A program made the translations under genes and the position numbers. Shown one piece after another: positions 62,208-62,472 of a stretch of 64,000 nt of DNA. This DNA is from Luteitalea sp. TBR-22 (GTDB lineage Bacteria; Acidobacteriota; Vicinamibacteria; Vicinamibacterales; Vicinamibacteraceae). The stretch lies in assembly GCF_016865485.1 (NCBI RefSeq), contig NZ_AP024452.1, positions 4,982,501 to 5,046,500 of the forward strand, read 5' to 3'. Every line of letters begins with the position of its first letter. Positions within the stretch are counted from its first letter, which is position 1. The notes under the pieces were generated by a model. That model worked only from the letters and a program-made list of their open reading frames with translations, searched no databases and was not told where the DNA came from.

Positions 62208-62395
62208 TGGTACGCCCGAGAGGATTTGAGCCCGGTGGCGAGCCCGGAGGCGGAGTCACTGGCCTGAAGGCTCTCGTGGCCGTACCACCCCGCGAAGCGA
62301 GGTGGTACGCCCGAGAGGATTCGAGCCCGGTGGCGAGCCGGAGGCGGAGCCACGGGCCTGAAGGCTCTCGTGGCCGTACCACCCGCGAAGCGAGG
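62208..62395. repeat. two tandem repeats of about 94 bp, each starting with a tRNA-Arg 3' end copy
   Basis: Unit 1 is 62208-62302 (95 bp) and unit 2 is 62303-62395 (93 bp). They differ by two one-base gaps and a few substitutions. Both begin with the 22 bases complementary to the tRNA 3' end: CCA, discriminator, acceptor 3' strand, T stem and part of the T loop. The tRNA gene itself follows unit 2 directly. Each unit ends in a hairpin with GTACCACC and GGTGGTAC arms around CGC-GAA-GCG (62282-62308; 62376-62401). A second imperfect inverted repeat lies mid-unit. Confidence 0.85.
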
Positions 62396-62472
62396 TGGTA
62401 CGCCCGAGAGGATTCGAACCTCTGACCTTTGGCTCCGGAGGCCAACGCTCTATCCAGCTGAGCTACGGGCGC
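62396..62472 (-). tRNA. tRNA-Arg (anticodon CCG)
   Basis: On the minus strand the gene opens GCGCCCG (62472-62466), with D arm GCTCAGCTGGATAGAGC, anticodon stem TTGGC/GCCAA around loop CTCCGGA (anticodon CCG), and T arm AGAGG-TTCGAAT-CCTCT. The acceptor 3' strand is CGGGCGT, then discriminator A. The CCA (62398-62396) is encoded. All four stems pair, with one G-U at the acceptor base. The length is 77 including CCA. CCG reads CGG codons, which are frequent at this GC content. Confidence 0.95.

Follow-up and report, generated by a model that had tools for sequence, protein, structure and literature searches.

Introduction

The tyrT repeat of E. coli has been known for decades as a one-locus oddity, and its RtT product is a stable RNA freed from the tRNA transcript. 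REP/RAYT and other palindromic repeats are short non-coding palindromes, and folded recombination sites carry conserved mismatches. Luteitalea sp. TBR-22, whose genome contains the array analysed here, is a plant-associated bacterium.

An antisense RNA has been reported at tRNA-Tyr (PMC11623569), and work on partial tRNA genes from integrated elements gives as its example a 21.4-kb island with a 44-bp repeat at either end (PMC9897764). The published genome record places Luteitalea sp. TBR-22 in class Vicinamibacteria (PMC8852301). In the open-licence literature on tRNA-linked repeats, tyrT and RtT, we found no description of the layout with which this work is concerned, where the end of a tRNA gene (D1) is followed by an inverted (I) and then by a direct (D2) copy of itself. 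The Rfam RtT model (RF00391) has no match in our locus at E values up to 1 and four matches in E. coli; the Luteitalea units resemble RtT in layout but are not RtT members.

Results

Our window, the whole stretch of 64,000 nucleotides that was analysed, belongs to a genome that is a single contig of 6,468,984 bp. It contains a tRNA-Arg(CCG) gene at 62396..62472 on the minus strand (ARAGORN; Rfam RF00005, 70.3 bits), and two units lie downstream of it in the tRNA sense. A preliminary description had placed tandem units of 95 and 93 bp beyond this tRNA, in agreement with the TRF array at 62204-62417 (period 94, 2.3 copies, 95% matches). Unit 1 (62303..62395, minus, 93 bp) starts directly after the tRNA CCA and unit 2 (62208..62302, minus, 95 bp) follows it, both being delimited by TRF and by the copies that they contain. 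With the covariance model R1, presented below, unit 2 scores 61.3 bits from outside the training set, and the 81.5 bits of unit 1 are to be read in the light of its being one of the 16 training sequences.

In the tRNA sense, the order is the tRNA end itself (D1, the last 25 nt of tRNA-Arg(CCG), 62396-62420, minus), a spacer called loop1, the inverted copy I of the tRNA 3' end, a stem-loop core, and the direct copy D2. On the minus strand, unit 1 is made of loop1 (62382..62395, a predicted small hairpin), I (62355..62381), the core stem-loop (62328..62354) and D2 (62303..62327), and unit 2 of loop1 (62288..62302), I (62261..62287), the core (62233..62260) and the direct copy D3 (62208..62232). 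The last 22 nt of the tRNA are found again at 62303-62324 (22/22) and at 62208-62229 (21/22), which confirms the 22-base copy per unit described earlier. The T-loop changes reported for both copies are also there: each carries T54 -> C, at what we take to be position 54 of the tRNA numbering, and the distal copy has an additional G-to-A change, so that neither would be expected to form a normal T arm. The rest of the unit had been thought to be unrelated to tRNA. This was wrong, because each unit also holds the inverted copy, in which 22 unit positions align to the tRNA end with a local score of 13.4 that none of 2000 dinucleotide shuffles reached in either unit.

A few hundred bases past the array, at 61174-61854 of the window (minus), are genes for Gp49-like (PF05973) and HTH_37 (PF13744) proteins, which by family and by our reading would form a HigB/HigA-like toxin-antitoxin pair. 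Upstream of the tRNA, a sulfatase gene (PF00884) occupies 62560-63951 on the minus strand.

The array has many relatives in its own genome. R1, built from 16 units of which 7 come from this genome (hereafter G000), has 20 matches in it. Seventeen of them begin 14-392 nt behind a tRNA of the same strand, the chance of a random point falling within 600 nt behind a same-strand tRNA being 0.0018, and the other three are at 7, 11.6 and 15 kb. The unit type thus occurs beyond this locus, as searches of this and of related genomes show, and the suspicion of a tRNA-anchored repeat family was well founded; most copies lie close behind a tRNA, and three lie kilobases away. Inspection of the DNA behind all 44 tRNA genes gave curated units behind 13 of them, namely Arg-CCG, Arg-TCG, Asn, Asp, Gln-CTG, Gln-TTG, Leu-GAG, Lys-TTT, Met, Pro-TGG, Ser-CGA, Ser-GGA and Ser-TGA (Asp and Gln-TTG being the weakest cases). 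Elsewhere, curated units follow 7/44 tRNA genes in G001 and 11/44 in G002. The count of 44 for G000 was obtained with ARAGORN and Rfam and includes none called tRNA-Ile; the published record gives 55 tRNAs (PMC8852301).

According to R1, the array behind tRNA-Met has five units and those behind Arg-CCG, Leu-GAG and Ser-CGA have two each. Since the tandem units of one array are nearly identical, growth by exchange between the direct copies, in line with the unequal exchange proposed in the preliminary description, is plausible.

Do the arms of a unit, I and D2, resemble the end of any tRNA or specifically that of their neighbour? We scored them at 14 tRNA-specific bases, leaving out the T loop and CCA, and swapped the tRNA labels 20000 times, for a list of tRNAs that was itself curated partly by arm similarity. 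The self-scores of both I and D2 beat all swaps in G000 (13 tRNAs) and G002 (11), and the result was weaker in G001 (7), where 9 swaps for I and 117 for D2 reached the self-score. When the test was restricted to the units found by R1, the numbers of such swaps for I and D2 were 0 and 0 in G000 (10 tRNAs), 0 and 0 in G002 (9), and 56 and 148 in G001 (6). Judged by these scores, the arms fit their own tRNA rather than others. For example, the end of tRNA-Arg(CCG) differs between G000 and G002, and I and D2 differ along with it while the core is nearly unchanged.

The two arms do not fit equally well. In the units of Met, Asn, Ser-GGA, His and Arg-ACG, I tends to be the better arm and D2 to be decayed; in those of Leu-GAG, Ser-CGA and Lys, D2 is better than I. 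The arm scores are anticorrelated across 31 units (rho -0.57, p 0.0009), with rho -0.39 (p 0.10) when taken by tRNA species (19). Simple copying does not predict this anticorrelation, which counts against an explanation by DNA copying.

In the curation of units, 52 raw ones were reduced by 16 that were spurious, duplicated or poorly delimited. The comparison of cores used the model alignment and 65 first units labelled by hand, without rows lacking a clear tRNA (e.g. L193, L206) and without the further units of arrays. Within the genus, cores at the same tRNA in other genomes have an identity of 0.709 (n=39), against 0.524 for cores at other tRNAs of the same genome (n=187; 0/1000 permutations). 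With all genomes included, the two means become 0.606 (n=94) and 0.519 (n=209; 0/1000 permutations). Same-tRNA pairs that extend beyond the genus, with one or both members outside it, reach 0.533 (n=55), hardly over the background of 0.498-0.519, the lower value being that of pairs sharing neither tRNA nor genome. An earlier version, in which cores were cut by pattern, gave 0.724 vs 0.568; of its 34 cores, three were mis-cut (G001 Pro, G001 Leu-GAG and G004 Ser-GGA) and one came from a false unit (G002 Ser-GCT), the pattern yielded no core for eight adjacent units and one typed unit, and units with a decayed D2 (e.g. Asn) were not listed.

Within the genus, cores thus follow tRNA identity, which suggests that units are mostly inherited in place there and gives no support to frequent hopping. 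Nevertheless, the cores of different tRNAs, such as Arg-CCG, Pro-TGG and Lys-TTT, share sequence and are recognisably related, so some spread between tRNA genes must have occurred. Local copying alone does not explain these related cores, and they count against it.

Some units lie far from their tRNA. In G000, three are found 7-15 kb from theirs, Leu(TAA), Arg-TCT and Lys-CTT, and a tRNA 3' piece reaching the anticodon region directly precedes 8/16 displaced units, two of which are in this genome. Our reading is that islands may have integrated at the tRNA and pushed the resident unit away. A tyrosine integrase adjoins tRNA-Leu(TAA), and there is no PF00589 match near Arg-TCT or Lys-CTT. If islands displaced resident units, the tRNA manages without an adjacent one, and the unit is then probably not required beside it.

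Several flanks can be seen in the same context. By eye, the similar flanks of L016 and L038 (both in G000), L106, L192 and L177 look like the end of a recombinase gene, and they directly follow tRNA-Lys(CTT), tRNA-Ala(GGC) or the last D copy. D copies may be landing sites for such islands. What had looked like an empty site at Lys-CTT was rejected, because the G000 Lys-CTT unit sits 7 kb further on and the flank reads like the end of an island. In G001, a Leu(GAG) unit with the 3' half of a tRNA-Leu lies at C1:1602179-1602261 (L205), around 4.4 Mb in coordinates from the tRNA-Leu(GAG) of that genome; its displacement is a sign of rearrangement or of a lost island.

These observations bear on the possibility that the units are gene-less integrative mini-elements, i.e. 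folded attachment sites moved in trans by tRNA-specific recombinases, with tandem units reflecting repeated integrations at D. Integration at a tRNA usually leaves a direct repeat of the tRNA end, flanks resembling recombinase-bearing islands by eye occur directly after D2 in G002, G044 and G005, the conserved mismatches of the units resemble those of folded recombination sites, and related cores are present at different tRNAs. Yet the similarity of cores by tRNA identity within the genus is left unexplained, and candidate enzymes are few in a search that covered tyrosine integrases and Y1 transposases. The genome has six tyrosine integrases, two of them near tRNAs, and two weak matches to the Y1 transposase PF01797, with bit scores of 27.6 and 24 where the cut-off is 23; around 9 kb separate the closer match from a unit-bearing tRNA. 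Plasmid and phage records had no unit match. In viral contigs the core pattern had none either, and the tRNA-end pattern had 36 loci of which none has matching arms (best 7/11); we take these loci for neighbouring tRNA genes. On balance, we consider the mini-element unlikely.

The simpler version of this idea, in which the units are tandem attachment-site scars as the preliminary description had put forward, is not supported. A covarying core and an inverted tRNA copy are not expected of a plain att scar. The 19-mer at the 3' end of tRNA-Arg(CCG) occurs at three sites only (D1, D2 and D3) in the whole genome at up to three mismatches, the reversed-pattern control giving zero matches, so this search revealed no island partner of the array. 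The direct copies are 93-95 bp apart, with neither a recombinase gene nor cargo between them, and the PF00589 match nearest to the array is at about 290 kb.

The stems of the units covary strongly. Among 16 sequences, 14/21 pairs changed on both sides (shuffled mean 7.9), and among 87 distinct sequences there are 263 double-changed cells, vs 91.5 in shuffles, these being the distinct rows among the 92 of alignment A2, which was fitted to the model. Covariation of this kind counts in favour of a functional 3' trailer RNA, co-transcribed with the tRNA, in which I would pair alternatively with D1 or D2 and thereby affect maturation or termination. The units also lie in the tRNA sense, mostly directly after CCA, and Rfam classes RtT as cis-regulatory. 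Predicted partition functions for 21 selected units fit such a switch: adding I drops the mean pairing of the acceptor 3' and 5' strands from 0.99 to 0.34, and in the presence of D2 the 5' acceptor strand is predicted to pair with it (mean 0.62).

An RNA helix tolerates G.U pairs, and the unit stems show no preference for them. Leaving out one nearly fixed G.U column, we counted 52 G.T and 77 A.C cells (23 vs 33 in the core, 29 vs 44 in the arms), in contrast to 39 G.U and 6 A.C in tRNAs, for which acceptor and T stems were counted in 87 genes of four of these genomes (Fisher p 3.7e-8). The difference persists when cells are filtered by helix context, i.e. by their neighbours (14 vs 27 in units; Fisher p 5.8e-7 against tRNAs), and when redundancy is reduced (33 vs 47 in units, 14 vs 4 in tRNAs; p 0.008). 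Many stem cells are other mismatches, e.g. 97 in the neighbour-filter analysis, and part of the G.T/A.C count is decay or misalignment. Column make-up alone would give 62.6 G.T and 57.8 A.C in the core, and 54.8 and 78.4 in the arms, so that both kinds are depleted in the observed counts. When I is compared with the exact complement of its tRNA, there are 346 matches, 4 wobble-keeping and 11 wobble-breaking transitions, and 37 transversions.

The absence of G.U preference, unlike in tRNA stems, argues for a palindrome at the DNA level rather than for a sense-strand RNA helix, and Watson-Crick complementarity without wobble is the outcome of copying at the DNA level. Complementarity by itself would already produce the predicted RNA switch, and the wobble test is evidence against such a switch. 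The trailer RNA is also difficult to reconcile with three tRNAs of G000 being 7-15 kb from their unit, and the units do not clearly replace intrinsic terminators, which follow 2/31 tRNAs with units and 21/101 without (p 0.10), a difference too slight to decide the matter. Also in favour of the trailer RNA is a nearly fixed G.U pair (72/87) beside an A.C mismatch, where the T loop of D2 meets I; this is the most conserved mark of the family in alignments A1 and A2, and may represent an RNA motif or a mark for recognition. A functional trailer seems improbable to us next to a DNA palindrome. An RNA from the antisense strand was considered and rejected: the surplus of A.C over G.T is small (77 to 52, p 0.034; in the core 33 to 23, p 0.23) and far below the 6:1 that tRNA stems show in the opposite direction.

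The family extends beyond G000. At E 0.01, R1 has matches in 19/60 genomes (own included), some of the order-level ones being weak. At E 0.001 or better it has matches in 10/396 genomes of the phylum (own included), in a search whose stricter filters lose weak matches; nine of the ten belong to the own order, and the tenth is G373, where three tandem units can be seen by eye behind tRNA-Glu and R1 detects two. We inspected 43 R1 matches singly and assigned their position classes by reading: 21 have a complete tRNA ahead of them, in some cases with another unit in between, 16 follow a piece of a tRNA 3' end, sometimes of only 5-9 nt, one is at a contig edge, and five (L183, L184, L185, L193 and L206) have no trace of tRNA and are probably chance or decayed matches.

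In 84,980 species genomes, a pattern made of a tRNA 3' end and a second copy with C54 gave 28 loci, in 14 of which the second copy agrees at least at 9/11 free positions. Five of these 14 are Acidobacteriota by record title; simple shuffles hint at an inverted copy in L240, L246, L249 and L261 (p 0.025, 0.085, 0.03 and 0.055), and do not support one in the fifth, L248 (p 0.565). Other kinds of direct repeats of tRNA 3' ends, with no clear inverted copy, are present behind or near tRNA genes in Pseudoalteromonas (L243 and L256), Curtobacterium (L253) and Flavobacterium (L239). The last two genera show that tandem 3'-end repeats can exist without a clear inverted copy, as they would if the Luteitalea units were plain tandem duplications of the tRNA end followed by drift, with no special process. 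This is very unlikely for the family described here, given its inverted copy, common core, covariation and arm tracking.

Discussion

Our study describes a tRNA-anchored family that is real, repeated and unusual, and that is most likely maintained by DNA copying from the host tRNA. The reading that we favour, with moderate confidence, is that the units are tRNA-anchored DNA palindromes whose arms would be rewritten from their host tRNA, through template switching or gene conversion. Template switching is documented as a process that makes, keeps and repairs hairpins (PMC8794818). Each unit consists, after the tRNA CCA, of copies I and D2 of its own tRNA 3' end flanking a stem-loop core. Sequence comparison shows the siting behind tRNAs, the fit of the arms to the local tRNA, the covariation with no G.U preference, the similarity by tRNA identity in the genus, the tandem arrays and the units kilobases away from their tRNA. 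With the tRNA gene as the source, template switching between the inverted copies might restore the arms, as might conversion or slippage between direct copies, which could equally permit the duplication or loss of units. On rare occasions the core, running from T loop to T loop, may be carried to another tRNA gene, where new arms would be copied. We infer these steps (arm renewal, duplication or loss, and rare core transfer) from the pattern of the units.

The units may offer a natural way of assaying how copies in inverted and in direct orientation stay in step in bacterial DNA. They also call for caution in a more general way, because strong covariation in a presumed conserved RNA can stem from DNA palindromes. 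Counting G.U against A.C helps to tell RNA helices from such palindromes.

Among known systems, REP/RAYT repeats are also short non-coding palindromes. The Luteitalea units differ from them in that their arms are copied from the adjacent tRNA, they are sited behind tRNAs and they have no clear Y1 transposase partner. They share a partial copy of a tRNA 3' end with the partial tRNA genes left by integrated elements, as presented in PMC9897764, but unlike in the case given there, their direct copies start in the T loop, are spaced by around 95 bp and have an inverted copy and a core between them.

The closest relative in kind is found in the E. coli RtT repeats. In E. coli K-12, the 3' end of tRNA-Tyr recurs exactly over 19 nt at three places behind tyrV, with a spacing of 178 nt. 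An inverted tRNA-Tyr end stands ahead of each of these copies (score 12.3, reached in 2/2000 shuffles), and one such unit lies in the tyrT-tyrV spacer (12.2, 30/2000). The tyrT RtT (Rfam RF00391, rttR) therefore resembles our array in having tandem units with direct and inverted copies of the adjacent tRNA end, and differs from it by its 178-bp units, its restriction to tRNA-Tyr and its other core, the Luteitalea units being around 95 bp long and present at many tRNAs. More tentatively than for copying from the host tRNA as such, it is possible that both are separate cases of one class, a self-adapting palindromic DNA element at tRNA 3' ends whose core would sometimes move and whose arms would be rewritten in both orientations. 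With the Vicinamibacterial units, the one-locus oddity of E. coli grows into a family that numbers dozens of copies and allows the matching of arms and tRNA to be traced across species.
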